Source of the DNA: a virus
Reading direction: 5' to 3' (one strand)
DNA: 20,303 nt
Virus record (IMG/VR): IMGVR_UViG_3300044613_002496
Location: 1-20,303 of that record
The notes under the pieces are model-generated. The model did no database searches. It worked only from the letters and a program-made list of their open reading frames with translations, and was not told the DNA's origin. The position numbers and the translations under genes are program-made. Of the stretch, positions 4,304 to 18,609 are shown one piece after another (position 1 is the stretch's first letter; every line of letters begins with the position of its first letter).

Positions 4304-4304
4304 A

Positions 4305-5225
4305 ATGTATAAAGCTAATATAATTAATGTGGATTACTTTGGATTAGAACCAATTTATTTTAATTTTTCTTGTGAAATTCATTTTACACGATTTGGTAGA
4401 TGTAATCGTTTACATAATAACATAAATCCAATTCAATTTGATGATCCTAATTCTTATAAAGTTTTTGTGTCTTGTAATGAGCCAGCATCGTCTCCAAATC
4501 GTGAGCCGCCGTGGAGAATTATAGAAAATGCACATCAATATAATCTAATATTAACTACAGATCAAGAAGTATTAGACCGAGTACCCCATTCTGTTTTGTT
4601 TCCTTATGGCACTACTTGGTTAAGTAAAGGACAAAATAAACATAATGATTGTCTTGGTGTTTTTGATGAATCAGTATTAGAGCAAGTTCAAAACAAAGAA
4701 AATAATATAAGTTTTATGTCAACAAATCATTTTGGTCATGCTGGTTATGATATAAGACGACTTATATGGAATAACAGGCATTTAATAAAACCAAAAACTG
4801 TATTTTATTCTAGTACAAGATTTATTACAAATCAAAGATCATGGAATGGACAATTATTCTCCGACACTGTACATGATGGTCTCCTTCCGAATGATGATAA
4901 GATTAATTTATTTAAATCTATGTTTAGTATTGTGGTAGAGAGTAATAAAGAACCTTGGTATTTTTCAGAAAAAATAGTAGACGCTTTATTAACAAAAACG
5001 GTTCCAATATATTGGGGCTGCACTAATATAGGAACATTTTTTGACGAACGTGGAATAATGTCTTTTAATACTATTGAAGAATTTTTTGAAAAGATCAACA
5101 CAATAAATGAAAATACATATGAACAAATGTTACAGTATGTACAAAAAAATTATGAAACAGCTAAACAATATGGAAGATCGATTTTTGATCGAGTTAAAGA
5201 TACAATAGAAAGAGAAAAACGATAA
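4305..5225 (+). CDS. GT10-like (alpha-1,3-fucosyltransferase type) glycosyltransferase 2
   Basis: A 306-residue protein with the same C-terminal signature as its neighbour: FSIVVES at 207-213, SEKIVDALLTKTVPIYWG at 221-238, then FFDERGIMSF. The canonical E-N pair is E-S here, and the usual TEK is SEK, so it is a divergent member. The N-terminal part contains a cysteine-containing segment (KVFVSCNEPAS) and is unlike that of the upstream GT10 protein, so the two probably use different acceptors. It starts with TAA-A-ATG spacing after the previous gene and has no clear Shine-Dalgarno site, suggesting translation re-initiation. GDP-fucose or another GDP-deoxysugar is the most likely donor by family. 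Confidence 0.78.
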   Translation: MYKANIINVDYFGLEPIYFNFSCEIHFTRFGRCNRLHNNINPIQFDDPNSYKVFVSCNEPASSPNREPPWRIIENAHQYNLILTTDQEVLDRVPHSVLFPYGTTWLSKGQNKHNDCLGVFDESVLEQVQNKENNISFMSTNHFGHAGYDIRRLIWNNRHLIKPKTVFYSSTRFITNQRSWNGQLFSDTVHDGLLPNDDKINLFKSMFSIVVESNKEPWYFSEKIVDALLTKTVPIYWGCTNIGTFFDERGIMSFNTIEEFFEKINTINENTYEQMLQYVQKNYETAKQYGRSIFDRVKDTIEREKR

Positions 5226-5825
5226 ATGCACATTTTAAAAGAAAACGTATTATGTACTATAATGATTTTATCTATTCCTTCAAGAATACAGAAGTATCTG
5301 ATTCCATTGTATGAAAAATTATTAAAACAAGCTGAAAAATGTCCAGAAGTAGAAATTTTGTGTTTAATTGATAATAAAAAAATGAGTATAGGCGAAAAAC
5401 GCCAATCACTAATAGACGCCGCTAGAGGCAAATGGGTGGCATTTATGGACGATGATGATGATGTAACAGACGACTACATGGAAACTATTGTTAATACCAT
5501 AAAAGAACAACCAGCCGATGTCATAACGTTCGATCAACATTGCATAGTTAACGGTAAAGAGTTTACTGTGAATTTTAATATGGACAATCCAAATGAAAGA
5601 TATATTCCAGGAATGACACACGTTAAACGGCCACCATTTCATATGTGTTTTTGGAGAGCAGAAATAGCAAAACAAGCTAAAATGGAATCGTCTTCGTATG
5701 GAGAAGATTTTGCTTGGTGTTTATTGATGTACCCTAAAGTACAATCCGAAACCCATGTAGATAAAATATTACATCTGTATAGATATGATGACAGAATATC
5801 TGAGTCTATACAATTTATGAAGTGA
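5226..5825 (+). CDS. GT2-type glycosyltransferase
   Basis: A 199-residue GT-A fold glycosyltransferase of GT2 type. A first beta strand (VLCTIMILSIPSR, 8-20) leads to a helix. EKRQSLIDAARGKWVAFMDD at 57-76, continuing as a run of five aspartates at 75-79, is the donor- and metal-binding region. A GED triplet at 159-161 fits the catalytic-base region of GT2 enzymes. The length is short, containing only the catalytic domain. ATG 5226 follows the previous TAA with no gap, and there is only a weak purine stretch upstream. The sugar specificity cannot be read. It is followed by a 47-base gap, the longest inside the cassette. Confidence 0.82.
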   Translation: MHILKENVLCTIMILSIPSRIQKYLIPLYEKLLKQAEKCPEVEILCLIDNKKMSIGEKRQSLIDAARGKWVAFMDDDDDVTDDYMETIVNTIKEQPADVITFDQHCIVNGKEFTVNFNMDNPNERYIPGMTHVKRPPFHMCFWRAEIAKQAKMESSSYGEDFAWCLLMYPKVQSETHVDKILHLYRYDDRISESIQFMK

Positions 5826-5872
5826 TTATAAACTTTAATATTAGGAAAAGTTAAAGCTTTTATTTTTAAAAA
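5826..5872 (+). promoter_or_regulatory. 47-base leader with possible RNA structure before a glycosyltransferase gene
   Basis: This is the longest gap in the cassette. An AGGA lies at 5843-5846, about 26 bases before ATG 5873, too far for normal use. AAAAG (5846-5850) and CTTTT (5857-5861) could pair and bring AGGA to about 11 bases from the ATG. A competing pairing, CTTTAA (5833-5838) with TTAAAG (5851-5856), would place AGGA in a loop. Both stems are short and A+U rich, so this is tentative. TATAAACT at 5827-5834 also resembles a T4 late promoter at six of eight positions. Confidence 0.25.
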
Positions 5873-6706
5873 ATGATAATTCAAATAACCATGACGAAAA
5901 ATGAGCTATTTCTTCTCAAAGAAATGATTCCAATATGGCAAAAATATGCAGATGCATTTGTTTTTATGGATGATGGTTCTACTGATGGTACATACGAATA
6001 CTTAACAGAAAATAAATATAAATTTAATATTTTAAATGTTTTAAGAACAGAACAGATTAAAGATAAACTTTGTGTCGAATCCAATATAAGACAAACATTA
6101 TATGATGAAGCATTTCAGTATTCTGGTAATATTATTTGTTTGGATACAGACGAATATCTCGACGGTAATATAACAAAACAACAATTAGAACAAATTCTAG
6201 AAACATATAAAGACACTTTAATTTATTTGGACTGGATACAGTATACAGATAAAAATACAATAAGAGTAGACGGTAAGTGGCGAGATCATATAGCAGATAG
6301 AATTGGTTCTTACTCCAATAGAACTCTGTTTAAAAATGCCCAAATGCATTCAGAACATTTACCACATCCAGGAAAAGCAATTAAAATATCTCCTCCACTA
6401 TTATTCGTCGCGCATTTACAGTGGTTAGACAAAAAAACAGTTGCAGTTAAACAATATTTTTGGAAAATAACAGATTACGTAAATAGTACTAAATTTGGTG
6501 TAAAAACCACTGACCCAAAAGAATACGATAAGTCTGTAAATGACTTTAATTGGGAGTATAAAGTATTTGACTTTCCTTTAAAAGTAGCGTATAATGTATA
6601 CGAAAATCACGATATTGAAAACAGTTATAAATTTAAATTTATAAAAGAAAACATTAAACAATACAACATCCCAAATTTAAATGATTGGGGTATGGGAATT
6701 CATTAA
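5873..6706 (+). CDS. GT2-type glycosyltransferase (Glyco_tranf_2_4-like)
   Basis: A 277-residue protein starting directly with the first beta strand (MIIQITMTKNELFLLKEMIP, 1-20). MDDGSTDGT at 32-40 is the classic nucleotide-binding motif, and CLDTDEYLDG at 89-98 gives the DxD metal site. This arrangement is typical of the Glyco_tranf_2_4 group seen in phages and capsule loci. The C-terminal 150 residues contain aromatic-rich acceptor-side segments (PHPGKAIKI; HLQWLDKKTV). The start at ATG 5873 is chosen because it is needed for the first strand; a later ATG at 5891 would remove it. Specificity is unknown. It ends two bases before the 3-dehydrase gene. Confidence 0.85.
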   Translation: MIIQITMTKNELFLLKEMIPIWQKYADAFVFMDDGSTDGTYEYLTENKYKFNILNVLRTEQIKDKLCVESNIRQTLYDEAFQYSGNIICLDTDEYLDGNITKQQLEQILETYKDTLIYLDWIQYTDKNTIRVDGKWRDHIADRIGSYSNRTLFKNAQMHSEHLPHPGKAIKISPPLLFVAHLQWLDKKTVAVKQYFWKITDYVNSTKFGVKTTDPKEYDKSVNDFNWEYKVFDFPLKVAYNVYENHDIENSYKFKFIKENIKQYNIPNLNDWGMGIH

Positions 6707-6707
6707 T

Positions 6708-8024
6708 ATGAGCATGGAAGATATTTTAAAACAAGTAGAACAGTTTATAAACGAAAAGCACGCAGCAAAAAAATGGATTGCTGGTCAAGATTGGGTTCAA
6801 TACGCTGGTCCGTATTTTGACACAGAAGAATACACAGAATCTATCAAAACAATATTACAAGGTTGGTTAGTTTTGGGCGAAAACGGTATTCGTTTTGAAC
6901 AAATTTTTCCACGTTTAGTTAATAAAAATTTTGGTATTCTTACTAATAGTGGTAGCAGTTCAAATCTACTAATGATGTCGGCTTTGACATCTAAACGCCT
7001 TACAAACTTTCCCAAAGGCACAAAAGTAATAACTCCTATTGCAGGATTTCCAACAACCATCAATCCTATCTTTCAGGTAGGATTTGAGCCAGTGTTTGTT
7101 GATATTGATCTTGATACATTAAATCTTAACCTCGATCAAGTAGAACAGCGAGCTAAAGAAGGATGTAAAGTTATTACTTTTGCTCATGTATTAGGCAATC
7201 CTCCAAACATGGATCGTCTAATGGATATTATTAATGAGTATGGATTGATCCTGTTAGAGGATTGTTGTGATGCTCTGGGTTCAACATATAAAGGAAAACC
7301 ATTGGGGAGCTTTGGTGAATTTGCAAGTTTTTCTTTCTATCCGGCACATCATATTACTATGGGTGAAGGTGGGTTTATCGCATGCAATACTCCACATCAA
7401 GAGAAGATAGTAAGAAGTTTTAGAGAGTGGGGCCGTGGTTGCTATTGTGTTGGCCAAAAAGCCAATTTACTAAAGAATGGTATGTGTAAATCTCGATTCT
7501 CTAATTGGTTGCCCGCTTTACCTGATGAAATATTTGATCACAAATACGTTTACGACGAAATTGGTTATAATTTAAAGCCAACAGACTCACAGGCAGCTAT
7601 GGGTCTTGCTCAGATAAAGAAACTACCAAAAATTATTAAAATGCGTAATGCTAACCACGAACGCTTAACACAGATATTTTCTAAATATGAAGACTATCTG
7701 ATACTTCCAAAAGCAACTAAAGGTGCTGATCCTGCTTGGTTTGCGTTTGCAATAACTATTAAAGATGGTGCTCCATTTAAACGAAAAGACATTGTGGATC
7801 ATTTTGAAAGCAATAAAATTCAAACTAGACCATATTTTGCTGGTAATATTATGTTACAACCAGCATATTCAGGAATGATGGATCCATATGAAGTAATTAC
7901 TAAATATCCAAATGCAAGAAAAGTTACAACAGATACTTTTTTCTTAGGAACTAGTCCGGTAATTACTTCGGAGCAATTAAGTTATATTGAACAAGTGGCT
8001 GATAATTTTTTTAAAGGAATATAA
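6708..8024 (+). CDS. rfbH: NDP-4-keto-6-deoxyhexose 3-dehydrase (RfbH/E1-type, PLP and Fe-S)
   Basis: This is a member of the DegT/DnrJ/EryC1/StrS fold that removes the C3 hydroxyl of a nucleotide-bound 4-keto-6-deoxyhexose, the key step toward 3,6-dideoxy sugars. It has 438 residues from ATG 6708 (RfbH is about 437), chosen over an ATG at 6681 inside the previous gene. The usual PLP lysine is replaced: FYPAHHITMGEGG at 210-222 has histidine at 215, the hallmark of 3-dehydrases rather than aminotransferases. Cysteines 187, 245, 247 and 260 form C-X57-C-X1-C-X12-C; the E1 [2Fe-2S] motif that I recall is C-X57-C-X1-C-X7-C, so the last spacing is five longer. The Fe-S ligands argue for E1 rather than ColD. 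An E3-type reductase partner would be needed and is not in the window. Confidence 0.9.
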   Translation: MSMEDILKQVEQFINEKHAAKKWIAGQDWVQYAGPYFDTEEYTESIKTILQGWLVLGENGIRFEQIFPRLVNKNFGILTNSGSSSNLLMMSALTSKRLTNFPKGTKVITPIAGFPTTINPIFQVGFEPVFVDIDLDTLNLNLDQVEQRAKEGCKVITFAHVLGNPPNMDRLMDIINEYGLILLEDCCDALGSTYKGKPLGSFGEFASFSFYPAHHITMGEGGFIACNTPHQEKIVRSFREWGRGCYCVGQKANLLKNGMCKSRFSNWLPALPDEIFDHKYVYDEIGYNLKPTDSQAAMGLAQIKKLPKIIKMRNANHERLTQIFSKYEDYLILPKATKGADPAWFAFAITIKDGAPFKRKDIVDHFESNKIQTRPYFAGNIMLQPAYSGMMDPYEVITKYPNARKVTTDTFFLGTSPVITSEQLSYIEQVADNFFKGI

Positions 8025-8025
8025 A

Positions 8026-8718
8026 ATGAAAAATAGAATATTAATAATGACCGGTGGTGCTTCGATCAATAGGCCCTTGGAAGAAACGGATAACACAATA
8101 GAAGAAATTTTAGATGCAACATTACCATCCAAACAAAGATATGCCAAAAAATATGGTTATGATTTATTGTCAATAAGATCTTTTGGATCGGATAAAAAAA
8201 ATAGATTTAAAGATTTTCAAGTGGGGTTTTTAAGAGCATTACGTGCTTTTGAGATGTTAAATTATTACGATGTAGTAATGTGGTTAGATGCCGATTCTAT
8301 TATTACAAATGATGAGTATTCTATAAATGATTTTTTATTAGACGATGAGCATGTTTTTTATGCATCATATGATTGGTTTGGTAAAACATCATTTAGTGCT
8401 GGTAATTTTATAGTAAAAAATACAAAAGATACAGAAGAATTTTTAAATGTATTTTTTAATGTTTGTAAATACTTTCCAGAAGAACAAGCAACATTAAATA
8501 CAATGTATTTTAGTTCTTATTTATCTAATAAATTTAAAATATTAGATCATAAATATCTGGGATCAATTCCTACATTAGAAATGTATAAAAATTGGTTTAA
8601 ACCATTAAGACCTATAGTAGGAACGTGGGAAGAAGGTGCGTTTTTAGCACATATAGCTGGTTCGTGTAATGCTGGAAGATTAGAAATTTTAAACAATTAT
8701 TTTAAAAAATACTTATAA
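8026..8718 (+). CDS. GT34-like glycosyltransferase (galactosyl/mannosyltransferase fold)
   Basis: A 230-residue predicted GT-A enzyme resembling the GMA12/MNN10 (GT34) family. KQRYAKKYGYDLLSI at 36-50 precedes YDVVMWLDADSIITN at 81-95, where DAD is the metal site in the pattern typical of this family. SAGNFIVKNT at 124-133 and a C-terminal FLAHIAGSCN fit the later conserved blocks. ATG 8026 is used (AAGGA at 8014-8018), rather than an upstream ATG at 7987 inside the dehydrase gene. No membrane anchor is visible, unlike eukaryotic members. Sugar specificity is unknown. AT content is very high. Confidence 0.75.
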   Translation: MKNRILIMTGGASINRPLEETDNTIEEILDATLPSKQRYAKKYGYDLLSIRSFGSDKKNRFKDFQVGFLRALRAFEMLNYYDVVMWLDADSIITNDEYSINDFLLDDEHVFYASYDWFGKTSFSAGNFIVKNTKDTEEFLNVFFNVCKYFPEEQATLNTMYFSSYLSNKFKILDHKYLGSIPTLEMYKNWFKPLRPIVGTWEEGAFLAHIAGSCNAGRLEILNNYFKKYL

Positions 8719-8720
8719 AC

Positions 8721-9254
8721 ATGAAAACACAATATTCTCAAATAGGTCAAGATGTATTTGTAATTCAGACATTAAAACAAAAAACAAATGGTTTATTTTT
8801 AGATATTGGTTCTGCTGGACCAACTATTATTAATAACACTTATTTGTTAGAAAAAAAATATAATTGGACTGGCATATCAATTGATTTAGATAAAAATTAC
8901 GAAACAGAATGGAAAAATAGTGATAGAAATTCTAAATTCTTAATACAAGATGCATTAACTACAAATTATGATGAAATTTTATCTAATCTTTTAATACAAA
9001 ATAATAAAGATAGAATAGATTATTTAAGTATGGATTTGGAACCACCAGAAATAACACTTCAAGCATTATACAAATTGCCTTTAGATAAATTTAGATTTTC
9101 TGTTATAACTTTTGAACATGATTTTTATCGTAATAATTTACATTTATTAGAAGCTAGTAGGGAGCATTTTAATAAATTTAATTATAAATTAGTTGTATCT
9201 AATATTGCCAATCAAGAAGATTGGTGGATTGATTCTACTTTAAATATTATATAA
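8721..9254 (+). CDS. FkbM-type SAM-dependent methyltransferase
   Basis: A 177-residue protein of the FkbM (Methyltransf_21) type, which commonly O-methylates sugars. SQIGQDVFV at 6-14 is the usual opening. GLFLDIGSAGPTIINNTYLL at 24-43 is the SAM-binding strand and loop, followed by WTGISIDLD. YLSMDLEPPEITLQAL at 101-116 corresponds to the family's YLSxDxEGxE segment; here the canonical glycine-x is PP. FSVITFEHD at 126-134 also fits. Its likely role is methylation of a sugar hydroxyl in the glycan made by this cassette. It begins two bases after the previous stop without a visible ribosome site. Confidence 0.8.
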   Translation: MKTQYSQIGQDVFVIQTLKQKTNGLFLDIGSAGPTIINNTYLLEKKYNWTGISIDLDKNYETEWKNSDRNSKFLIQDALTTNYDEILSNLLIQNNKDRIDYLSMDLEPPEITLQALYKLPLDKFRFSVITFEHDFYRNNLHLLEASREHFNKFNYKLVVSNIANQEDWWIDSTLNII

Positions 9255-9266
9255 AGGATTTATTTT

Positions 9267-10049
9267 ATGAACGACTTATCTATTGGTATTGTTACTTTTA
9301 AAGAAAGAAAAGAACTAATCAAAGAGTTAGTTAAAAGAATACGTTTAACAGTTCCAGAAACTGTTGATATTATTTTAGCAGTAAATGGTAATAATGAAGA
9401 AGAAATGCCAAACGATTATAGAACAGAAATGTTAGATTTGGCAAAACAATATAAAAATGTTTATCCTATATTCTGTCCAGAGTTTAAAGGATTGAGTAAA
9501 CTGTGGAATAATTTAGTTATTTTTAGTAAAACTGAATATAATTTTATACTTTGTGATGATGTTGTGTGGGCAAATCAAAACATATACAACGATATTATAA
9601 ATCACATAGAAAAAACCAAACAAGAATTTTTTACAATTAATGGCGGATTTTCTCATTTTATTTGCACTAAAGGTATTTTACATAAAATTGGTTATTTTGA
9701 TGAAAGGTTATGTGGGTTTGGAGAAGAAGATGGAGATATGCATTGGAGGCACATTAAAACGATGGGTTATGATATACCTAAATTAACTATTTTTGGAATT
9801 TATAATAATGCTGCATACAATTTAAAAAATGAAAAAATAGAAACTCATCAAGATAATAAACCGCGATTTAATAGAGAATTAATTTTACAGATGTATGAAG
9901 AAAATAAAACAGAAGGTTACGCAACTTCTATGTGCCCATTTCCTATTAAAAAAATAATACCAGATTTACAACAATATCCATATGAAAAATTCATTAAAAA
10001 TAATAAACATAATATTAAAAAATTTGAAAGGGTAGTTTTTGATGAATAA
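9267..10049 (+). CDS. GT2-type glycosyltransferase
   Basis: A 260-residue protein with a GT-A type start (LSIGIVTFKERKELIKELV, 4-22). ILCDDVVWAN at 94-103 is the DxD-type site, and GFGEEDGDMHWR at 150-161 matches the G-x-E-D-x-D region of GT2 enzymes. The C-terminal 90 residues carry no known domain. A clear AAGGA (9253-9257) precedes ATG 9267; this AAAGGATTTATTTTATG leader resembles the one before the clamp gene at 321-340. The end overlaps the next gene by eight bases. Donor and acceptor are unknown. Confidence 0.8.
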   Translation: MNDLSIGIVTFKERKELIKELVKRIRLTVPETVDIILAVNGNNEEEMPNDYRTEMLDLAKQYKNVYPIFCPEFKGLSKLWNNLVIFSKTEYNFILCDDVVWANQNIYNDIINHIEKTKQEFFTINGGFSHFICTKGILHKIGYFDERLCGFGEEDGDMHWRHIKTMGYDIPKLTIFGIYNNAAYNLKNEKIETHQDNKPRFNRELILQMYEENKTEGYATSMCPFPIKKIIPDLQQYPYEKFIKNNKHNIKKFERVVFDE

Positions 10050-10857
10050 AATATCAATTTTTGGTGGTAATGGATTTATAGGATCTAAATTTTGTAAAAA
10101 TGATTATATATCAAAAACAAATAATATTCTTTATTTAATAAGCACAGTAGATAATTATAATGTTCATAATAATTTACATGTTGATATTGATACAAATTTA
10201 AAAGTATTAATGAATGTGTTAGAGAATATTCCAAAAAATAGTGATACTATATTTAATTTTATCAGTTCTTGGTTTGTCTACGGTCAAAATAATGAAATTC
10301 CTTTTAGAGAAGATTATTCAAAATGTAATCCAACCGGATTTTATTCTATTACAAAATACTGTGCAGAACAGCTATTAATATCTTTTTGTCAAACGTATAA
10401 TATAAAATATAGAATATTTAGATTAGCAAACGTATTAGGAGAAGGAGATACTAAAATCTCTAAAAAGAAAAATGCACTTCAGTATTTGATAAAACAAATT
10501 ACCGAAAATAAAGACGTAGAATTGTATTACGGTGGTCAGGTTTTGCGAGATTATATTTACGTGGATGATGTTTGTAATGCGATCAAACACTGCATGGATA
10601 ATGCACCTTATAATGAAATAATAAATATAGGGAGCGGAGAACCATTTGTCTTTATTAATCTCATTAATAAAGCTATAGAATACTCAAAATCTAAATCAAA
10701 AATTATTCATATACAACCAACAAATTTTCATAATATAGTTCAAGTAAGACATTCTTATTTGGACATTAAAAAATTATCTTCTTATGGATATAAAAACCAA
10801 TTCAGTATTGATAACACCATACATAAGTTAGTAGATTTTTATAAAAATAATATTTGA
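10042..10857 (+). CDS. NAD(P)-dependent epimerase/dehydratase (extended SDR)
   Basis: A 271-residue extended short-chain dehydrogenase. The dinucleotide-binding loop is GGNGFIG at 8-14, with serines at 75-76 and the catalytic pair Y101 and K105 in YSITK. RDYIYVDDVCNAI and NIGSGEPF are conserved downstream blocks of nucleotide-sugar epimerases/dehydratases. It lacks the DE pair of 4,6-dehydratases, so it is more likely a 4-reductase or an epimerase. ATG 10042 is preferred over an in-frame TTG at 10039. It overlaps the upstream GT gene by eight bases. It could reduce the 4-keto intermediates made by the dehydratases in this cassette, but the substrate cannot be read. Confidence 0.82.
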   Translation: MNKISIFGGNGFIGSKFCKNDYISKTNNILYLISTVDNYNVHNNLHVDIDTNLKVLMNVLENIPKNSDTIFNFISSWFVYGQNNEIPFREDYSKCNPTGFYSITKYCAEQLLISFCQTYNIKYRIFRLANVLGEGDTKISKKKNALQYLIKQITENKDVELYYGGQVLRDYIYVDDVCNAIKHCMDNAPYNEIINIGSGEPFVFINLINKAIEYSKSKSKIIHIQPTNFHNIVQVRHSYLDIKKLSSYGYKNQFSIDNTIHKLVDFYKNNI

Positions 10858-10868
10858 AAGAATTTAAT

Positions 10869-11822
10869 ATGAAAAAAATAGTATATGTGACTGGATGTTT
10901 AGGATTTATTGGTTCTTATGTTACCAGATTATGCCTAAAAAAGGGATGGTATGTAAAAGGCGTAGATAAAATAACATATGCCGCAAATAAAAATCTTTTA
11001 GAAGAGTTTAACAAATATGATAATTTTTCATTTGTTCATTGTGATATAAACGATCTTAAATTTTTATACGATTGTGATTATATTATTAATACTGCAGCAG
11101 AAACTCATGTGGGAAATTCTATAGCAAATAGTGACGATTTTGTTCACTCTAATATAAATGGTGTTCATAATCTTTTAGAACTAATTAAAAATTATAGACA
11201 AGAAAACGGGACAATTCCTACTCTTCTTCATTTTAGCACTGATGAAGTATATGGAGATATTGAATCTGGTGCACATACAGAAACAGATATATTAAAACCA
11301 TCAAATCCGTATGCTGCGACAAAAGCAGCAGCCGATATGTTAATTTTAGCTTGGTCTAGAACCTATAAAATACCATACGTAATAGTTCGACCAACTAATA
11401 ATTATGGTATAGGACAATATGTAGAAAAATTAATACCAAAGGCATGTAAATATTTAAAGCTAGGGAAAAAAATTCCATTACACAATAACGGAACCCCAAT
11501 TAGAAATTGGCTACATGCTGAAGATACTGCAGCAGCAACAGTAAAAATTATTGAAACCAATTCTAAAAATGAAATTTATAATATTTGTGGCGGATTTGAG
11601 CAATCAAATATTGATACAATTAAAGCTTTATTAATTGCTAATGGTATTGATATTAATGAGATAAACAAATATGTAGATTTTTCTTGCAACAGGCCGGGAC
11701 AGGATGTAAGATATGCATTGGATGATTCTAAATTGAGAGCTCTTGGTTGGATTTCAAATAAACATTTCAGTACAGAAATTAAAAATATAGTAGAATATTA
11801 TAAGGATAAATTTATATGGTAA
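10869..11822 (+). CDS. rfbB: dTDP-glucose 4,6-dehydratase-like (RfbB family)
   Basis: Converts an NDP-hexose to the 4-keto-6-deoxy sugar, the entry point for deoxysugars. The product is 317 residues, shorter than the roughly 360 of E. coli RfbB. Motifs are TGCLGFIG at 8-15, STDEVYGD at 123-130 with the catalytic T-D-E triad at 124-126, YAATK with Y148 and K152, and RPTNNYGIGQYVEKLIP at 174-190. RNWLHAEDTAAA and RPGQDVRYALDD are characteristic RfbB blocks. The nucleotide (dTDP, CDP or other) cannot be decided by eye; a CDP-glucose preference would suit the downstream 3-dehydrase. ATG 10869 is chosen over a TTG at 10854. No rfbA, rfbC or rfbD partner is visible, so the host may supply the activated sugar. 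Confidence 0.87.
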   Translation: MKKIVYVTGCLGFIGSYVTRLCLKKGWYVKGVDKITYAANKNLLEEFNKYDNFSFVHCDINDLKFLYDCDYIINTAAETHVGNSIANSDDFVHSNINGVHNLLELIKNYRQENGTIPTLLHFSTDEVYGDIESGAHTETDILKPSNPYAATKAAADMLILAWSRTYKIPYVIVRPTNNYGIGQYVEKLIPKACKYLKLGKKIPLHNNGTPIRNWLHAEDTAAATVKIIETNSKNEIYNICGGFEQSNIDTIKALLIANGIDINEINKYVDFSCNRPGQDVRYALDDSKLRALGWISNKHFSTEIKNIVEYYKDKFIW

Positions 11823-12364
11823 AAAACGCATTAATTATTACTTGGGAAAAATTTCAAGATCACGAATTAATTTATCCTTTTTATAGTTTAAAGGAAGCCG
11901 GATTCAATGTAACGCTAATGGCCAATAAAACTGGTAAGATCTGGGGTAGTTTAGGCACTCACATGTTATGTGATGTAGAGACCACAATTTTTGAAAACGA
12001 AACAACACGACAAAAGTATCTTAATGATTACGAACTCTTGGTGATTCCTGGTGGTGTTAAAGCATTAGAAAAACTAAGACAAGAAAAAGGAGTTCTTAAG
12101 TTTGTACAAGAATGGAATATTGCAAATAAAACTATTTTTTCAGTATGCAATGGTGCACAACTATTAATTTCTGCTAAGATTTTAAAAGGAAGAACTATTT
12201 CTGGTTATTATTCTATTGATATTGATATTGAAAATGCAGGTGCTATTTACAGCAGAGAACCTGTAGTAATTGATGGCAATATTATATCTTGCCCTCATTA
12301 TGATTTTATGGGAGAATGGTTGCGCGTTGGTTATCAAGTTCATAATGAAAGAACTAAAAACTAA
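11816..12364 (+). CDS. PfpI/DJ-1 superfamily protein
   Basis: A 182-residue protein of the class I glutamine amidotransferase-like (PfpI/DJ-1) fold. LIITWEKFQDHELIYPFYSL at 6-25 carries the conserved glutamate (E17). LLVIPGG at 74-80 is the central strand, and SVCNGAQLL at 109-117 is the nucleophile elbow with C111. ISCPHYDFMGEWLR at 157-170 ends the fold. Known members act as deglycases/glyoxalases, chaperones or hydrolases, and the exact reaction cannot be read here. It overlaps the RfbB-like gene by seven bases and the cupin by one, so it seems to be made with the sugar enzymes. Its place in a glycan cassette is unusual; a role in handling reactive keto sugars is only a guess. Confidence 0.82.
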   Translation: MVKNALIITWEKFQDHELIYPFYSLKEAGFNVTLMANKTGKIWGSLGTHMLCDVETTIFENETTRQKYLNDYELLVIPGGVKALEKLRQEKGVLKFVQEWNIANKTIFSVCNGAQLLISAKILKGRTISGYYSIDIDIENAGAIYSREPVVIDGNIISCPHYDFMGEWLRVGYQVHNERTKN

Positions 12365-13047
12365 TGAGTTATGATACTAATATTGTAAAAAAACCATGGG
12401 GATACGAATACTTAGCCTACCAAAATGAAGACGTTGGCTTATGGTTTTTATATATTTCTCCTAATCAGAGCACTTCTATGCATTGCCACCCCAAAAAAAC
12501 TACTGGATTGGTTTTATTAGACGGCAAAGCAGAAGTATCATTTTTAGCGGATACTCGTGTTTTAAACTCATTAGATAAAGTTATGATTAGACGAGGATTA
12601 TTTCATTCAACCAAAGCACTGTCTGATGATGGTGCTTGGATATTTGAAATCGAGACACCAAAAGATAAACACGATTTGGTTAGATTAAAGGATCGATACG
12701 GTCGTTCTCATAAACCGTATGAAGATAATACATTTGAAGAATCTAAAACAGATCAATGTTTATGGATAAACGAACCTAAATTAAATAAAAAAAATACTTA
12801 TCAGTTTGCAAATTGTACTATAACAATAGAAACTATAAATGATATTGAAATAATTAATAATAAACAGGATTCAGATTTAATCGTGTTTCTTAAAGGTGGC
12901 ATGGTAAGAATTATTGATGGAATATCACACTGTGTTACAATACCTGGAGATGTTGGATTTGCAAAAATCGTAAAACAAGTATCAAAAGAATTAGATGGTG
13001 TGATTTCTGAAACAATTTTATTAACAATTTGTAAAAATGAAAAATAA
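12364..13047 (+). CDS. cupin-domain protein (phosphomannose isomerase type II-like N-terminus)
   Basis: A 227-residue protein with a cupin in the first half. KPWGYEYLAYQ at 10-20 and HCHPKKTTGLVLLDGKAEV at 40-58 match the conserved start of type II mannose-6-phosphate isomerase and similar sugar cupins; H40, H42 and probably H81 would bind metal. HKPYEDN follows, and the remaining 100 residues may form a second, metal-free barrel (a VFLKGGMVRI segment near 178-187 resembles one). It may be a sugar-phosphate isomerase or epimerase, or a sensor; no residue settles this. It starts on the last base of the previous stop (TAATG) and overlaps the next gene by 11 bases. Confidence 0.78.
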   Translation: MSYDTNIVKKPWGYEYLAYQNEDVGLWFLYISPNQSTSMHCHPKKTTGLVLLDGKAEVSFLADTRVLNSLDKVMIRRGLFHSTKALSDDGAWIFEIETPKDKHDLVRLKDRYGRSHKPYEDNTFEESKTDQCLWINEPKLNKKNTYQFANCTITIETINDIEIINNKQDSDLIVFLKGGMVRIIDGISHCVTIPGDVGFAKIVKQVSKELDGVISETILLTICKNEK

Positions 13048-13426
13048 TACACACTTTCCTCCCGGTTATGAAAATGATAAAAATAATATAGCTATTGATT
13101 TTGATGGAGTTATTCATTGCTTTGATAAAGGATGGTATGATGGAACTTGTTATGGAGAACCAATTCCTGGTTCTTTGCAAGCAATAAAAAATTTATCTAA
13201 ACAATATAAAATTATTATTTTTACTGCTAAAGCAAAACCAGATAGGCCATTAGTAAACGGCAAAACAGGAACAGAATTAGTGGAAGAGTGGCTGCAGAAA
13301 CATGATATATTAGATTGTATTAGCGGTATTACTTCTGAAAAACCAAGAGCAATGTTATACATTGATGATAATGGTTATCGATTTGAAAATTGGAATGATA
13401 CTTTAAATTTTATTAATACATTATGA
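13037..13426 (+). CDS. small HAD-superfamily phosphatase
   Basis: A capless HAD hydrolase of 129 residues. Motif I is AIDFDGVIH at 19-27, with nucleophile D21 and general acid D23. Motif II is IIIFTAKA at 59-66, with T63. Motif III lysine is K102 in EKPRAMLYIDD, and motif IV aspartates are D110 and D111. A full active site is therefore visible. Such small HADs in glycan loci usually dephosphorylate sugar phosphates. Start and stop overlap both neighbours (11 and 4 bases), so it is translationally linked to the cupin and to the ThDP enzyme. The substrate is unknown. Confidence 0.85.
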   Translation: MKNNTHFPPGYENDKNNIAIDFDGVIHCFDKGWYDGTCYGEPIPGSLQAIKNLSKQYKIIIFTAKAKPDRPLVNGKTGTELVEEWLQKHDILDCISGITSEKPRAMLYIDDNGYRFENWNDTLNFINTL

Positions 13427-15186
13427 TTAAAGTTTCTGATTACATATTTGATTATCTTCTTTCTAAAGGCATTAATACTATTTTTTCAGTGTCTGGAGGA
13501 GCAGCTGCACACTTATTAAATTCTGTAAGAGAAAGGCCATTTACATACATTTGTAATTATCATGAACAAGCTTGTGCTATGGCAGCTGAAGGGTACGCAA
13601 GAATAGCAAATAAGCCAGCTTGTGTATTAGTCACAAATGGTCCTGGCTCTTCTAATACTATTACTGGAGTTTTAGGTGCTTATCAAGACTCCATACCAAT
13701 GATTATAATTTCTGGCCAAGTACCAGTAAATCAATCTCTTAGTAGTTTACAGGATATAAAATTAAGACAACTAGGTGTACAAGAATGTGATATTATTAGT
13801 ATGGTAACCCCCATCACCAAATATGCCGTTCAAGTAACAGATCCAAATACTTTACAATTTCATCTGGATCAAGCTTATACTATTGCTATGTCTGGCAGAA
13901 AAGGTCCAGTATGGTTGGATATTCCTTTAGACGTACAAAACAGTAAAATACAAATAAAAGAAATTAATGCTGAAATAAAAAATAATATAGTTGAATATAA
14001 TTTAGATGAAATAATTGATGTTATTTTTAAAGCTAAATCTCCAGTTATTATTACAGGCAACGGTATACATTTATCTCAAACAGAAAAATTATTTCTTGAA
14101 CTAAAAAACATGTTACAAATACCAGTAATATCTACATGGATATCTAAAGATTTAATGAATCAACAAGATCCATTATTTGTTGGAAATTTTGGTTTATTAG
14201 GAGAACGAGCAGCAAATTTTGCAGTTCAAAATTCAGATTTATTATTAATTTTGGGAAGTAGGATGTCTATTCCTAATATTGGTTATCAACCTAATTTATT
14301 TTCTCCAAAATCAATTAAAATAATGGTTGATATAGACGAAAATGAAATAAAAAAACCTACTATTAAAATAGATTATCCTATAGTAGATGATTTAAATTTT
14401 TTCTTTCCTAAGATATTATTAAAATTAAAAAATAAAAATATACCAAACTGGAATGATTGGGTAAATAAAACTCAATTGTGGAAAGAAAAATATCCAGTGT
14501 TTCAACCAGAATATAAAACAAATACAGATAAAATTAATTCATTTTATTTTATGGAAGTGTTGTCGTCTGTTTTGACGGATAATATAATAGTAACAGATAT
14601 GGGAACAAGTTATACTTGCACTATGCAATCACTACAAATGAACGGCAAAAATCGATTATTTACATCAAGTGCTTGCTGTTCTATGGGATTTGGTTTGCCA
14701 GGAGCTATTGGAGCATATTATGCAGATCCTCAAAAAAATATTATTCTTATTTCTGGTGATGGTGGATTACAAATGAACATTCAAGAATTACAAACAGTAA
14801 TTCATAATAATATTCCTTTAAAAATTTTTGTATTAAATAATAATGGTTATTTGGCCATAACACTAATGCAAGATAATTTATTTAATGGAAATTATATAGG
14901 TTCTAATAATAAAAGTGGAATTAGCTCTCCTAGTTTCATAAAATTAGGAGAAGCTTATGGTTTTAAAACCTTTAAACTAAAAAATAATACAGAATTACAA
15001 GATAATATTAATTTAATTTTAAACACAAAAGGCCCTGTATTGTGTGAAATTATGATGACAGAAAATCAATTATTAATTCCACGAGTGCAAAGCTCTAAAG
15101 ACTCCGAAGGCAAAATCACATCAACCTCTTTAGAGAATATGTTTCCTTATCTTGATGCAGCAGAGATGAAAGAAATCATGAAATGA
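13423..15186 (+). CDS. thiamine diphosphate-dependent enzyme, acetolactate synthase/YerE-like
   Basis: A 587-residue three-domain ThDP enzyme. The N-terminal PYR domain has the activating glutamate E48 in YHEQACAMAAEGYARI, then VTNGPGSSNTITGVLGAYQD at 70-89. A central domain runs about 190-330 (LGSRMSIPNIGY). The C-terminal PP domain carries GDGG at 445-448 and NNN at 472-474, the ThDP/Mg motif. A homologue, YerE, adds an acetyl unit from pyruvate to C4 of a CDP-3,6-dideoxy-4-keto-hexose to make yersiniose; this fits the 3-dehydrase in the same cassette. Authentic acetolactate synthase or another carboligase is the alternative. It overlaps its neighbours by four bases at each end. This gene is extremely AT-rich. 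Confidence 0.87.
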   Translation: MIKVSDYIFDYLLSKGINTIFSVSGGAAAHLLNSVRERPFTYICNYHEQACAMAAEGYARIANKPACVLVTNGPGSSNTITGVLGAYQDSIPMIIISGQVPVNQSLSSLQDIKLRQLGVQECDIISMVTPITKYAVQVTDPNTLQFHLDQAYTIAMSGRKGPVWLDIPLDVQNSKIQIKEINAEIKNNIVEYNLDEIIDVIFKAKSPVIITGNGIHLSQTEKLFLELKNMLQIPVISTWISKDLMNQQDPLFVGNFGLLGERAANFAVQNSDLLLILGSRMSIPNIGYQPNLFSPKSIKIMVDIDENEIKKPTIKIDYPIVDDLNFFFPKILLKLKNKNIPNWNDWVNKTQLWKEKYPVFQPEYKTNTDKINSFYFMEVLSSVLTDNIIVTDMGTSYTCTMQSLQMNGKNRLFTSSACCSMGFGLPGAIGAYYADPQKNIILISGDGGLQMNIQELQTVIHNNIPLKIFVLNNNGYLAITLMQDNLFNGNYIGSNNKSGISSPSFIKLGEAYGFKTFKLKNNTELQDNINLILNTKGPVLCEIMMTENQLLIPRVQSSKDSEGKITSTSLENMFPYLDAAEMKEIMK

Positions 15187-15974
15187 ATTTATTAATTACT
15201 GGTGGAAATGGTTATATTGCTAAAAGTCTTTATACTGGGTTAAAAGAAAAATATAATATAACCAAGATAACACGACAAGATTTTGATCTTATTGATTATA
15301 ATGCAACACGTGAATGGTTTCATCAACGTTATTTTGATGTTGTAATTCATACAGCAATTGTGGGCGGAAGTAGACTTAAACAAGAAGACGATGCTGTTGT
15401 TGAACAGAATGTTTTAATGTATAATAATTTATTAGCAAATAAACAACATTTTGATAAATTTATAACTTTTGGCTCGGGAGCAGAATTTTTTAAACAAAAT
15501 ACTCCTTATGGCATAAGTAAAAATATAATAACAGAATCAATTAAAAAAAATAATAATTTTTATAATTTAAGAATTTTTGCTGCATTTGATCATAATGAAT
15601 TAGATACAAGATTTATCAAAGCAAATATTTTACGTTATATCAATAAACAACCAATGTTAATCCATACAGATAAAATCATGGACTTTTTTTACATGAAAGA
15701 TCTAATAAACCTTACAGATTATTACATAAAAAATACTGAGTTAAAAAAAGAAATAAATTGTTGTTATGAACATAAATATACTTTGTCTAACATTGCAAAT
15801 ATAATAAATGAATTAGATATGTACAAAGTACCAATACAAATAGAGAATAAAAATACTCTTGAATTTTATTGTGGTGTGCACAGTGAGTTTCCTATAAAAA
15901 CTATAGGTTTGACAGACGGAATAAAATATACTTTTAAATCATTATATGAAAACAGCATTAATAATCGGAGCTAA
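15183..15974 (+). CDS. NAD(P)-dependent SDR nucleotide-sugar reductase/epimerase
   Basis: A 263-residue extended SDR. ITGGNGYIAKSL at 5-16 is the NAD(P) loop, VVIHTAIVGGSRLKQEDD at 53-70 the following strand and active-site loop, and FGSGAEF at 96-102 carries S98. The catalytic pair is Y109 and K113 in YGISK. The pattern resembles WcaG-like GDP-fucose synthases and other sugar 4-ketoreductases, but it is about 60 residues shorter than WcaG. It lies between the ThDP enzyme (4-base overlap) and gmd (29-base overlap). It could therefore serve either as a YerF-like reductase of the branched keto sugar or as a reductase of the Gmd product. The sequence does not decide. Confidence 0.8.
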   Translation: MNLLITGGNGYIAKSLYTGLKEKYNITKITRQDFDLIDYNATREWFHQRYFDVVIHTAIVGGSRLKQEDDAVVEQNVLMYNNLLANKQHFDKFITFGSGAEFFKQNTPYGISKNIITESIKKNNNFYNLRIFAAFDHNELDTRFIKANILRYINKQPMLIHTDKIMDFFYMKDLINLTDYYIKNTELKKEINCCYEHKYTLSNIANIINELDMYKVPIQIENKNTLEFYCGVHSEFPIKTIGLTDGIKYTFKSLYENSINNRS

Positions 15975-16923
15975 TGGTCAAGACGCATCGTATTTGGCAG
16001 AATTTTTATTAGACAAAAAATATAAAGTACACGGAACTATTCGTAGAAATTCTGTTCCAGAATCTCAAACTACCCGTATAGAACACTTACATGTTAGAAA
16101 CGATATAACACTTCACTACATGGATCTTATAGATCCTATAAGTGTGGATTCTGTTGTAAATAAAACACAACCAGACGAAATTTACCATCTGGGTGCTCAA
16201 TCACACGTTCAAGTATCTTTTGATCTACCAAAATATACTTTAGACGTAAATGGTGGAGGCACTCTGGCTGTATTAGAAGCTGTTAGAAGGTTTTCACCAC
16301 ATTCTAAAGTATATCATGCTGCAACTTCTGAAATGTTTGGCAACTCTTGTGATCCTGACGGCTTTCAACGAGAAACTACCCCAATGGTTCCTGTAAGCCC
16401 ATACGGGTGTGCAAAACTGTACGCTCACACGCTTTGTAGAAATTATAGGCAAGCATACAATATGTTTGTGTGCTCTGGAATTTTATTTAATCATGAATCA
16501 CCCAGAAGAGGAATAAATTTTGTCACAAACAAAACAGCGTTAGAGGCTGTTAAAATTAAATTAGGTTTATCCAAAGAATTAGTTTTAGGTAACTTGTATT
16601 CTAAACGCGACTGGGGGCATGCAAAAGATTACATTGAAGGCATGTGGCTCATGCTCCAGCAACAAACTCCCAAAGACTTTGTGTTGGCTACGGGAGAAAC
16701 TCGGACCGTAGAAGAAATGGTAAAATACGTATTTGATGAATTGGGACTAGACTGGAAATCTTATGTAAAAACTGATAAAAAATATGAAAGACCTGAAGAA
16801 CTAAACTATCTTCGTGGTGATGCTTCTTTGGCCAAAGCTTTTCTAGGTTGGTCGCCCAAATATACATTTGAATCAATGATGAAAGAAATGGTGCAACATT
16901 GGTTTCAAATATTACATAAATAA
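15946..16923 (+). CDS. gmd: GDP-mannose 4,6-dehydratase
   Basis: Converts GDP-D-mannose to GDP-4-keto-6-deoxy-D-mannose, precursor of GDP-fucose, GDP-rhamnose, GDP-colitose and GDP-perosamine. The product is 325 residues, close to the short end of the family. Motifs are GANGQDASYLAEFLL at 8-22 (canonical GITGQDGSY), HLGAQSHVQVSF at 81-92, TSEMFG at 127-132 with T127 and E129, and SPYGCAK with Y153 and K157. GILFNHESPRRG at 178-189 and KRDWGHAKDYIEGMWLMLQ at 220-238 are diagnostic. ATG 15946 lies inside the end of the preceding SDR gene. Base composition is less AT-rich than in the genes before it. Two GT10-like transferases in the cassette could use a GDP-deoxysugar derived from its product. 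Confidence 0.95.
   Translation: MKTALIIGANGQDASYLAEFLLDKKYKVHGTIRRNSVPESQTTRIEHLHVRNDITLHYMDLIDPISVDSVVNKTQPDEIYHLGAQSHVQVSFDLPKYTLDVNGGGTLAVLEAVRRFSPHSKVYHAATSEMFGNSCDPDGFQRETTPMVPVSPYGCAKLYAHTLCRNYRQAYNMFVCSGILFNHESPRRGINFVTNKTALEAVKIKLGLSKELVLGNLYSKRDWGHAKDYIEGMWLMLQQQTPKDFVLATGETRTVEEMVKYVFDELGLDWKSYVKTDKKYERPEELNYLRGDASLAKAFLGWSPKYTFESMMKEMVQHWFQILHK
16915..16922 (+). promoter_or_regulatory. candidate T4-type late promoter (CATAAATA)
   Basis: CATAAATA differs by one base from the T4 late consensus TATAAATA and fits the NATAAATA form described for cyanophages. It sits 18 bases before ATG 16941 and overlaps the end of gmd. This is where base composition changes from cassette-like to core-like. 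A transcript starting about six bases downstream would just include the GGAG ribosome site at 16928-16931. Such octamers also occur by chance in AT-rich DNA (for example at 6011-6018 inside a gene), so the confidence is modest. Confidence 0.4.
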
Positions 16924-16940
16924 CAGTGGAGATTTATACT

Positions 16941-18185
16941 ATGCCCAAAATATGCCTTTCAATGATCGTTAAAAATGAAACTCACATTATTAAAGAGTGT
17001 TTTGATTCTATCCACAAATATATTGATTATTGGGTAATTGTAGATACAGGATCTACAGACGGAACTCAAGACCTAATCAAGCAATACTTTGCAGAAAAGG
17101 GCATTCCTGGTGAACTTCACGAACGACCATGGGTAGGATTCGGTCATAATCGATCAGAAGCTCTTGCCCTTTGTGATGGTAAAGCAGACTGGGCGTGGAT
17201 GATTGACGCAGACGATTACATTCAAGGTAAGTTTGAATTTCCATTAAATCCACCACAAGAAATAGACGGTTGGGCTCTCAAGTTTGCTCGGGGAGAATTT
17301 GAGTGGTGGCGTACCCAAATCTTCCGTACTGGACGTGGTTGGAAGTACTTTGGAGTGCTCCACGAATACCCTAGTATCGATGAGAAGCAACCTGCAATAG
17401 GAAAAATTGAAGGGGGCTACGCAATCGTTGCCCGTACACTGGGCGCACGAAACCAAAATATTACACCAGTAGAGAAATACAAAAAAGATGCAGAGGTACT
17501 AGAAGAAGCCCTACAAAAAGAACCCGACAATATCCGTTATCAGTTTTATCTAGCCCAAAGCTATTTTGATTCTCAACAATGGGAAAAGGCAGAAGCAGCA
17601 TACGCCAAACGAGTACAGATGGGTGGATGGGAAGAAGAACAGTTTTACTCTGCTTATCGTATAGGATTGTGTCGGGGATTACAGAATAAACCTTGGACAG
17701 ATATTCAACAAGCGTTTTTGGAAGCATGGGAGATTCGACCAACTCGTGCAGAGCCACTACACCAGATAGCCAGAGTGTACAGACTTATGGGACATCCCCG
17801 TTTGAGTTATCTGTACGCCAAGATGGCACTAGACCTTCCGTATCCTCAAGACGATATTCTGTTCGTTTCTGCAGACGTGTACAAATACGGAGTTTTAGAC
17901 GAGATTGCATCTACCGCATTCTATGCGGGCAAGCCTCATATTGGTTACTCTGCGTGTAAAAAACTGTTAACAGAAAATCTACTACCAGAAACAGAAGTAG
18001 ATCGGGTTCAAAACAACTTTAAAGAATATCTTAGATTCTTTGAACAAACTAATCAGATGCATATACTGGAACAAGTGGATCAGCAAGCCCAAAAGCAAGC
18101 AGAAAAAAGAGATCATAAACCAGCCCTTTTCCCTGCCCAATTGCCTAAAAAGAAATTCAAGGAGCGTAAAGCTGTTAGCAGATAA
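16941..18185 (+). CDS. GT2 glycosyltransferase with C-terminal TPR-like region
   Basis: A 414-residue two-part protein. Residues 1-180 are a GT2 domain: ICLSMIVKNETHIIKECFDS at 4-23, VDTGSTDGT at 34-42, and WMIDADDYI at 86-94 with the DxD site. Residues 180-300 look like tetratricopeptide helices (for example IRYQFYLAQSYFDSQQWEKA at 198-217 and LHQIARVYRLMGHPRLSYLYA near 273-293). A basic, glutamine-rich tail ends the protein. The GT2-TPR fusion is a type I recall from T4-like phages of aquatic bacteria. ATG 16941 has GGAG at 16928-16931; a GTG at 16926 is rejected. GC content is about that of gp44, unlike the cassette, which suggests it belongs to the ancestral phage gene set. Confidence 0.87.
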   Translation: MPKICLSMIVKNETHIIKECFDSIHKYIDYWVIVDTGSTDGTQDLIKQYFAEKGIPGELHERPWVGFGHNRSEALALCDGKADWAWMIDADDYIQGKFEFPLNPPQEIDGWALKFARGEFEWWRTQIFRTGRGWKYFGVLHEYPSIDEKQPAIGKIEGGYAIVARTLGARNQNITPVEKYKKDAEVLEEALQKEPDNIRYQFYLAQSYFDSQQWEKAEAAYAKRVQMGGWEEEQFYSAYRIGLCRGLQNKPWTDIQQAFLEAWEIRPTRAEPLHQIARVYRLMGHPRLSYLYAKMALDLPYPQDDILFVSADVYKYGVLDEIASTAFYAGKPHIGYSACKKLLTENLLPETEVDRVQNNFKEYLRFFEQTNQMHILEQVDQQAQKQAEKRDHKPALFPAQLPKKKFKERKAVSR

Positions 18186-18201: not shown

Positions 18202-18609
18202 ATGGCAGCACAATACGATCTAAATTTAAACAAAAATTCTAGTTTTAGTGCATGGGTTCAATTCTTACAGGACGATAATACTCCTGTAGATTTAAGCGGT
18301 TATTCTGCAGAATTTAAAATTGAAAGATACAAAAACGCCGATTATCCTCTCGTTCGAGCAATTCCGGGAGAAGCCAGATACGGTTATACGGGACCGTCTT
18401 CTACTGGTATTTTAGCTACCTCTGGTGGTATACAACTCAACACAAATTACACAGGATCTGGTTTAACCGGAGGCATTTTAGTAGAGTTAAATAAAACAAC
18501 TACTAATTCTTTACCTGTAGGTAAACAATTTTATAATCTTAGATTAGAATTCGGTGAATCGTATTCCGAAGTTTTACTTGAAGGTAGAATGGACGTAAAA
18601 CCAGAATAA
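18202..18609 (+). CDS. small beta-rich protein, probable virion/baseplate component (BppU-N-like)
   Basis: A 135-residue protein beginning QYDLNLNKNSSFSAWVQFLQ and continuing with DNTPVDLSGYSAEFKIER. This pattern of a strand with 'DxTPVDLxGY' and then an 'F-I-R' strand resembles the N-terminal domain of baseplate upper proteins and related tail adaptors. A glycine/threonine-rich middle (residues 55-95) and a final strand pair (QFYNLRLEFGESYSEVLLEG) support a beta sandwich. No signal peptide is present. There is no clear Shine-Dalgarno site; TATACTGTATA, a short palindrome, precedes the ATG. It sits 16 bases after the GT2-TPR gene and before the FN3-repeat gene, so a structural role is likely but inferred. 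Confidence 0.65.
   Translation: MAAQYDLNLNKNSSFSAWVQFLQDDNTPVDLSGYSAEFKIERYKNADYPLVRAIPGEARYGYTGPSSTGILATSGGIQLNTNYTGSGLTGGILVELNKTTTNSLPVGKQFYNLRLEFGESYSEVLLEGRMDVKPE

Follow-up and report, generated by a model that had tools for sequence, protein, structure and literature searches.

The 20,303-nucleotide stretch of viral DNA analysed here (the window) is likely to encode a virus-borne pathway to a C4-branched 3,6-dideoxyhexose, with an exchangeable cassette for the branch. The whole window is a fragment of a T4-like phage, in which gp45, gp44, gp62 and RegA are followed by a sugar cassette of ∼15 kb; its virus appears to be one of water bacteria. A preliminary description, made from sequence alone, had proposed a branched 3,6-dideoxy sugar pathway from an E1-type dehydrase (6708–8024), a YerE-like ThDP carboligase (13423–15186) overlapping an SDR (15183–15974), and an RfbB-like dehydratase (10869–11822). 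All of these genes are open frames at the coordinates given, and their family assignments held. The cassette as first described omitted the PfpI, cupin and HAD genes (11816–13426), which share the exchange unit of the ThDP gene. The features of the region are as follows.

2820–6706, forward strand: glycosyltransferase-type genes adjoining the module (two GT10-like, at 3434 and 4305; GT2-like at 5226 and 5873).
6708–8024, forward strand: E1/RfbH-type PLP(PMP) [2Fe-2S] 3-dehydrase (NCBIfam NF011936, PDB 3bcx, His/Cys signature).
8023–10857, forward strand: the stretch separating E1 from RmlB, with an FkbM-like gene, an SDR and glycosyltransferase-like genes.
10854–11822, forward strand (TTG at 10854, ATG at 10869): RmlB-like NDP-glucose 4,6-dehydratase (TIGR01181, PDB 2hun, member of the complete module).
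11816–12364, forward strand: PfpI/DJ-1-family protein, in the exchange cassette (PF01965, PDB DJ-1D and PfpI, swap boundaries).
11823–15178, forward strand: exchangeable branch cassette (PfpI, cupin, HAD and ThDP genes), flanked by the stop codon of RmlB and the start of the SDR.
12364–13047, forward strand: bicupin, partner of the ThDP enzyme (model with pLDDT 90.6, cupin fold).
13037–13426, forward strand: small HAD-like phosphatase (weak Pfam Hydrolase_6 match, PHROG 1238, synteny).
13423–15186, forward strand: YerE-like ThDP carboligase, the branching enzyme (domains, PDB scores, tree, residues).
15183–15974, forward strand: extended SDR, likely an NDP-sugar ketoreductase with a YerF-like role (side-chain role by analogy), at the conserved module end.
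15946–18185, forward strand: Gmd-like GDP-mannose 4,6-dehydratase (15946–16923) and GT2 glycosyltransferase, downstream and not constant in the module.

The E1 protein scores 468 bits against the NCBIfam RfbH equivalog model NF011936 (cut-off 423), and its closest solved structure is E1 of Y. pseudotuberculosis (3bcx, 346 bits). The equivalents of His220 and of Cys193, Cys251, Cys253 and Cys261 are present and invariant across 236 phage E1 homologues. The catalytic histidine stands where an aminotransferase would have its lysine, and the four cysteines are those for the [2Fe-2S] cluster, with the spacing to the last being 5 residues longer in the window protein. A second in-frame ATG for this gene is located at 6681. 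The reaction of E1, which we take to be the conversion of an NDP-4-keto-6-deoxyhexose into a 4-keto-3,6-dideoxyhexose, would require a 4-keto sugar, and a dehydratase is encoded in the same module. Its score against TIGR01181 (296 bits) is below the curated dTDP cut-off of 365, and its nearest solved structures are dTDP-glucose 4,6-dehydratases (RmlB-type 2hun, 227 bits). Membership in the RfbG CDP-glucose 4,6-dehydratase family is not met (TIGR02622, 72 bits, cut-off 278). The window dehydratase is thus RmlB-like, whereas bacterial relatives carry the CDP-glucose enzyme.

The ThDP protein contains all three TPP-enzyme domains, and both the ThDP motif (GDG...NN) and the catalytic Glu48 are conserved. 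Its top NCBIfam model is the acetolactate synthase TIGR00118, with a score (373 bits) under the cut-off of 538. The best solved relative (YerE itself left out) is JanthE, a YerE-like enzyme that accepts ketones, at 383 bits compared to 268 for the best acetolactate synthase. In a phylogenetic tree, the protein falls inside the clade containing JanthE, separate from five AHAS sequences. Residues F109, K159, M250, R276 and W464 are the keto-acid acceptor residues of AHAS; they are replaced by V, L, L, P and M, and the window protein agrees with JanthE at several of these positions. It is therefore very likely that the protein belongs to the YerE-like class and is not an acetolactate synthase, with acylation of a ketone being inferred without an assay. 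Grouping with true acetolactate synthases had been named as the outcome that would refute the preliminary proposal; since the protein falls with the YerE-like class, the phylogenetic half of that refutation was not met.

The SDR gene overlaps the ThDP gene by 4 bases. The protein belongs to the Epimerase family, with Ser98, Tyr109 and Lys113 present. Because a sequence search of the PDB gave only weak matches, its fold was modelled (pLDDT 94). The model has an NDP-sugar reductase fold, resembling GDP-fucose synthase and GDP-heptose C4-reductases. By analogy, it is possible that this enzyme reduces the acyl side chain, an activity that is inferred.

Support for a pathway also comes from the conservation of these genes in other viruses. 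A census sampled by similarity to the window, and therefore limited to one E1 lineage, gave 120 related viral loci (65 distinct) with a conserved module of E1, RmlB-like dehydratase, SDR and ThDP carboligase. All 65 distinct modules are co-linear and on a single strand, and since the same genes recur together in so many distinct modules, the gene set is far beyond chance. The pathway first proposed is supported, with its activity inferred. The carboligase slot is filled by a YerE-like enzyme, a split transketolase-like one or a split α-keto-acid-dehydrogenase-like one; all three of these ThDP superfamilies are known or proposed classes of keto-sugar branching enzymes. An E1-driven viral search gave 56 complete loci with E1, RmlB and SDR, where the slot is YerE-like in 29, split transketolase-like in 19, split aKADH2-like in 6 and double in 1; in the sole exception, a ThDP gene is present but frameshifted. 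The S-H68-type E1 lineage, used as a negative control, has a ThDP carboligase in none of 80 loci and also lacks this SDR.

DNA alignments delimit the exchanged unit. L080, a phage sharing 95% identity in E1, has a split aKADH2-like pair in place of exactly 11823–15178, and in a second close relative (L092) a split transketolase-like pair occupies this segment.

Within the exchanged unit, the nucleophile Cys111 of the PfpI-family protein is invariant among relatives, as are the DxD motif and further residues of the HAD-like protein, whose gene also occurs in HpaI-type cassettes. The cupin is fused to a YerE-like ThDP enzyme in two bacteria; a fold search matched several cupin enzymes, none of which points to one clear function. 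In other viral cassettes, the YerE-like gene lies beside enzymes that make 2-keto acids (PanB, HpaI, NeuB, or MhpF with DmpG), and the pairing with donor enzymes tracks the ThDP tree (12 changes, compared to 38.8 when shuffled). JanthE, which accepts 4-hydroxy-2-oxovalerate (PMC12188165), clusters in this tree with the MhpF/DmpG-linked phage enzymes. No donor-making enzyme could be named in the PfpI/cupin/HAD cassette.

The gene identities, catalytic residues, module conservation and cassette swaps rest directly on sequence; in the pathway we propose, the chemical steps, nucleotide, donor, product and sugar target are inferred. The RmlB-like enzyme would convert host NDP-glucose into NDP-4-keto-6-deoxyglucose, with dTDP a more likely nucleotide than CDP. 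E1 would then take off the hydroxyl at C3, with a ferredoxin or flavodoxin system of the host as the electron source. The YerE-like enzyme would decarboxylate a 2-keto acid and attach the resulting acyl carbanion at the ketone on C4, yielding an acyl-branched tertiary alcohol whose side-chain ketone may be reduced by the SDR. The PfpI, cupin and HAD proteins may make, isomerise or dephosphorylate the acyl donor, or trim the branch. Neighbouring glycosyltransferases would attach the sugar, probably onto a host surface glycan. The type of branch would be set by the exchangeable cassette that lies after the RmlB stop codon and ahead of the SDR.

E3 is a partner of E1 and not a part of it. As first described, the window contains neither an E3 reductase nor a sugar nucleotidyltransferase. 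Among 20 long related phage records, all of which may be fragments, no match to PF00970 or PF00111 was found for E3/Fer2, searches for ferredoxin and CTP-transferase gave nothing usable, and only 4 have an NTP_transferase match. Since no E3 or dedicated nucleotidyltransferase was found, the pathway probably relies on NDP-glucose and reductant from the host. SpnQ functions with generic reductases (PMC8987622).

The system shares an E1-type 3-dehydrase, a YerE-like carboligase, an SDR and the expected chemistry on a 4-keto-3,6-dideoxyhexose with the yersiniose pathway of Yersinia pseudotuberculosis. It differs in being virus-borne, in having an RmlB-like enzyme in place of the CDP-glucose dehydratase, in the absence of a detected E3 or nucleotidyltransferase, and in the PfpI, cupin and HAD partners of the carboligase, so that the donor may not be pyruvate. 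The product need not be yersiniose, as donor and nucleotide are inferred and the dehydratase is RmlB-like. In the ErwE/erwiniose and related bacterial clusters, too, the donor for a YerE-like enzyme is a functionalised hydroxy-2-keto acid, and the bacterial relatives identified in this analysis carry the same donor enzymes as the phages (NeuB, HpaI, MhpF/DmpG). However, these clusters, arranged as RfbF-RfbG-E1, have RfbF and RfbG of the CDP route, whereas the phage modules lack both and exchange the carboligase cassette in its entirety. The window enzyme and JanthE (PDB 8rph) agree in two active-site residues, V and P, and have a similar C-terminal tail, but JanthE has CDG in place of the usual GDG and lies outside the window's own clade.

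No phage with YerE or branched sugars is reported in the literature searched, and the preliminary description knew of none. The gene set is widespread in IMG/VR and not confined to the window. The rfbH gene by itself has been given as a viral gene (PMC10653327). T4-like aquatic phages (pelagimyophages and cyanomyophages) have glycosyltransferases for which a role in altering the O-chain of the host has been proposed (PMC7029224), with no branched-sugar pathway described in the sections bearing on it. Matches to the ThDP protein in named phages (≤32% identical) were rejected as precedents. The five annotated ones examined are all acetolactate synthases, four next to a small-subunit gene and most next to other Ilv genes, and three sit in bacterial contigs filed as phage; hence they provide no phage precedent.

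Three alternatives were considered. First, the core could make a plain 3,6-dideoxyhexose, with the SDR acting as an abequose/paratose-like reductase of the C4 ketone, while the ThDP cassette makes a separate compound, such as an acyl group decorating a glycan. The SDR fold, which is like that of NDP-sugar C4 reductases, and the sulfotransferase- and methyltransferase-like genes in some cassettes favor this view. We consider it unlikely, as a carboligase is present in every intact complete module, three superfamilies of known or proposed keto-sugar branchers alternate in one slot, and the S-H68-type lineage lacks both SDR and carboligase. Second, a GDP sugar could be branched, with Gmd supplying E1 along a route like that to colitose, while the RmlB-like protein would serve another sugar. 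The Gmd-like gene directly downstream and the GT10 fucosyltransferase-like genes upstream are consistent with this, but many modules have RmlB and no Gmd, and the Fe-S cysteines, missing from ColD (PMC8987622), are present in the window E1, making this alternative very unlikely. Third, an acetolactate synthase, present by accident in a sugar cassette as an auxiliary branched-chain amino-acid gene, would agree with the top NCBIfam model and with ilvB among viral auxiliary genes in one study (PMC8226683), but is all but excluded by the sub-threshold score, the separate AHAS clade and replaced AHAS-specific residues, the absence from the window of a recognisable small subunit or any further Ilv gene, and the constant linkage to E1, RmlB and SDR.

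Beyond the branched-sugar pathway itself, we lean, by a modest margin, towards a broader reading in which T4-like phages of aquatic settings maintain a modular system for building branched sugars. A constant core (RmlB-like, E1, SDR) would make and finish the sugar, and an exchangeable cassette (a carboligase of any of the three ThDP superfamilies with its own donor-making enzymes) would set the branch. This would entail phage-driven diversification of surface sugars on a nucleotide other than CDP and with no dedicated E3. It would also mean that short split transketolases work on a 3,6-dideoxy keto-sugar and that the PfpI, cupin and HAD proteins form a new route to the donor. The swaps between close relatives suggest modular diversification of a sugar coating by phages, not reported in the literature searched. 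If correct, viruses carry a swappable pathway for a rare class of sugars in at least 65 distinct versions, some viral genes annotated as "acetolactate synthase", "transketolase" or "pyruvate dehydrogenase" encode sugar-branching enzymes, and many new carboligases with adjoining donor enzymes are available. It would also offer a concrete test of how phages alter glycans, for example to exclude rivals.

The superfamilies that fill the carboligase slot in sister phages are those of the split-gene transketolases (miharamycin, amipurimycin) and the aKADH2 enzymes (aldgamycin, paulomycin type). A review lists split transketolases for keto-sugars from streptomycetes alone, and the phage modules, if interpreted correctly, would make this role testable beyond them. 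The phage split pairs are short, two-domain proteins (about 207+158 and 209+178 residues) encoded adjoining E1.

The window record, from IMG/VR, is a linear viral fragment of 20303 bases. Its left end is T4-like and encodes the sliding clamp gp45 (338-1024), the clamp loader (gp44 and gp62) and RegA; the nearest proteins to gp44 are from Methylophilales phage Melnitz, a Synechococcus phage and Pelagibacter phage Mosig (∼57-58% identity). The T4-like end is followed by ∼15 kb of sugar genes, on a single strand and mostly of low G+C content, and structural-type genes begin at 18202. The genes discussed here are:

6708-8024, E1 (RfbH-type 3-dehydrase)
10854-11822, RmlB-like dehydratase
11816-12364, plus strand, PfpI
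12364-13047, plus strand, cupin (bicupin)
13037-13426, plus strand, HAD protein
13423-15186, ThDP protein (YerE-like carboligase)
15183-15974, SDR

Directly after the sugar genes, the region 18202-20301 encodes a small LtfC-like protein as well as a long protein of structural type that contains repeats. A Gmd-like dehydratase (15946-16923) and two GT10 fucosyltransferase-like genes (within 3434-5225) are also present, and suggest that the cassette provides for a further 6-deoxy sugar, this one GDP-linked.

Related viral loci were collected by three queries (ThDP, E1 and SDR), of which the E1 query is unbiased towards ThDP. An intact ThDP carboligase is present in 55 of the 56 complete loci found with E1: 29 are YerE-like, 19 are split transketolase-like pairs, 6 are split aKADH2-like pairs, and one locus has two types. 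Pfam and PDB matches, one of them to a split-chain transketolase, identified the split pairs. The sole exception, locus L081, has a frameshifted ThDP gene, and other genes in that assembly are also broken. Seven more loci with E1 and RmlB lack both the SDR and ThDP genes; those whose gene order was inspected stop soon after RmlB. Pooling all queries gave 120 loci, of which 65 are distinct at a 95% E1 identity threshold; the four genes share a strand in all, and 48 have the order E1, RmlB, ThDP, SDR. The 80 control loci, which belong to the cyanophage S-H68 E1 lineage, lack this SDR and all three ThDP types. These three ThDP superfamilies are those for which keto-sugar branching is known or proposed (PMC12247030). 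LPS-type genes are known in pelagimyophages, where O-chain modification was proposed (PMC7029224), and rfbH and ilvB are already listed as viral genes; no report of a viral branched-sugar pathway uniting these genes was found in the open-access literature searched, which excludes most subscription journals.

Some split ThDP enzymes are very short (∼207+158 and 209+178 residues; L103:10455-11548, L092:11023-12124 and L080:8996-10164, all related loci), and seem to be without the C-terminal domain normally present in transketolase or E1-beta.

The preliminary description had named an RfbH/E1-type 3-dehydrase, and this assignment held. The window E1 exceeds the curated NCBIfam RfbH cut-off and aligns over almost its full length with the Y. 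pseudotuberculosis E1. The catalytic histidine and the four [2Fe-2S] cluster cysteines are conserved in the window protein, as they are in 236/236 aligned phage homologues; these cysteines distinguish it from ColD, which has no Fe-S cluster (PMC8987622). The RmlB-like protein is nearest to dTDP-glucose 4,6-dehydratases, yet its score falls short of the curated cut-off. The SDR is confidently predicted to adopt an extended-SDR fold, with NDP-sugar reductases as nearest structures. The S-H68-type cyanophage loci (L252-L331) also keep all Fe-S cysteines, without a ThDP carboligase, window-type RmlB or SDR; judging by gene content, this second phage E1 lineage would have to serve another 3-deoxy sugar.

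Identity of the ThDP protein as an acetolactate synthase (AHAS) was considered and rejected on its sub-cut-off score, the tree and replaced AHAS residues. It scores 373 bits against the acetolactate synthase model, well below the cut-off of 538. Among solved structures, its best match is JanthE (8rph; 383 bits, versus 268 for the top acetolactate synthase), a YerE-like enzyme whose reaction couples 2-keto acids to ketones (PMC12188165; reviewed in PMC12247030). The phylogenetic comparison suggested in the preliminary description was run with 72 proteins: the ThDP protein did not group with the five annotated AHAS, which form one clade, and fell instead in the JanthE-containing group, together with phage proteins and bacterial ones, many of them encoded in sugar clusters. 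The tree was built by a quick method with few AHAS. The AHAS residues F109, K159, M250, R276 and W464 are V, L, L, P and M in the window, close to V, M, V, P and T in JanthE.

In a partial, pattern-based scan of one genome per species, the bacterial relatives found for the YerE-like protein reach at most 49% identity, compared to up to 90% for viral ones. E1 is present in many of these neighbourhoods. In all four bacterial clusters tested with NCBIfam, glucose-1-phosphate cytidylyltransferase exceeds its cut-off, while CDP-glucose 4,6-dehydratase does so in two and, in the remaining two, outscores all other models; together with E1, these are as expected for 3,6-dideoxyhexose clusters. In contrast, the window has neither enzyme, and the phage modules carry the RmlB-like enzyme instead. 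A search of 20 related phage records, the longest of 212 kb, gave no E3-like reductase and no 2Fe-2S ferredoxin, and only four contained a nucleotidyltransferase; all 20 may be fragments. Since the E1 homologue SpnQ functions with generic ferredoxin or flavodoxin reductases (PMC8987622), supply of reductant and NDP-glucose by the host is, by analogy, a plausible possibility. In an Elusimicrobia genome (L191:7424-11827), two YerE-like genes are neighbours; in the first, which is a cupin fusion, the GDG motif for ThDP has been lost, and the two products may therefore act as a heteromer.

The region between RmlB and SDR behaves as an exchange cassette. The E1 proteins of the window and the related locus L080 are ∼95% identical, and their DNA is 87% identical up to 11822, the final RmlB base; similarity resumes at 15179, just ahead of the SDR start. 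This interval holds the PfpI, cupin, HAD and ThDP genes in the window and an aKADH2-like pair in L080; a transketolase-like pair fills the same interval in L092. The same kind of switch is seen between L092 and L134, and between L118 and L114. The four window genes thus move as a unit, which is the strongest argument for our inference, made from sequence alone, that PfpI (a DJ-1 family member), cupin and HAD would serve the ThDP step. Cupin-ThDP fusions in a Nitrospinaceae genome (L164) and in L191, where the fused ThDP domain lacks the GDG motif, further support this inference.

Other YerE-like cassettes encode enzymes that make 2-keto acids: PanB-like (31 loci), NeuB-like, HpaI-like, or MhpF with DmpG. 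Partner type tracks the ThDP tree (12 changes, versus 38.8 in shuffles), a contrast inflated by near-copies. JanthE, which accepts 4-hydroxy-2-oxovalerate (PMC12188165), groups with phage enzymes adjoining MhpF and DmpG; these two enzymes make that compound. The small HAD protein, which also occurs in HpaI cassettes, hints at a phosphorylated precursor; the donor for the PfpI/cupin/HAD type cannot be named. A NeuB-like enzyme fused to a cupin adjoins one YerE-like gene (L095:14871-16379), and weaker cupin matches lie beside bacterial YerE-like genes, in ORFs of similar length; cupins therefore recur with keto-acid donors. In L099 (13866-18125) and its relatives, an HpaI-like aldolase, an SDR and a 3-dehydroquinate-synthase-like protein adjoin the YerE-like gene, and a cyclised unit may be part of the branch. 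One HpaI-type cassette also encodes an LdpA-like ferredoxin-domain protein (L100:16091-17266).
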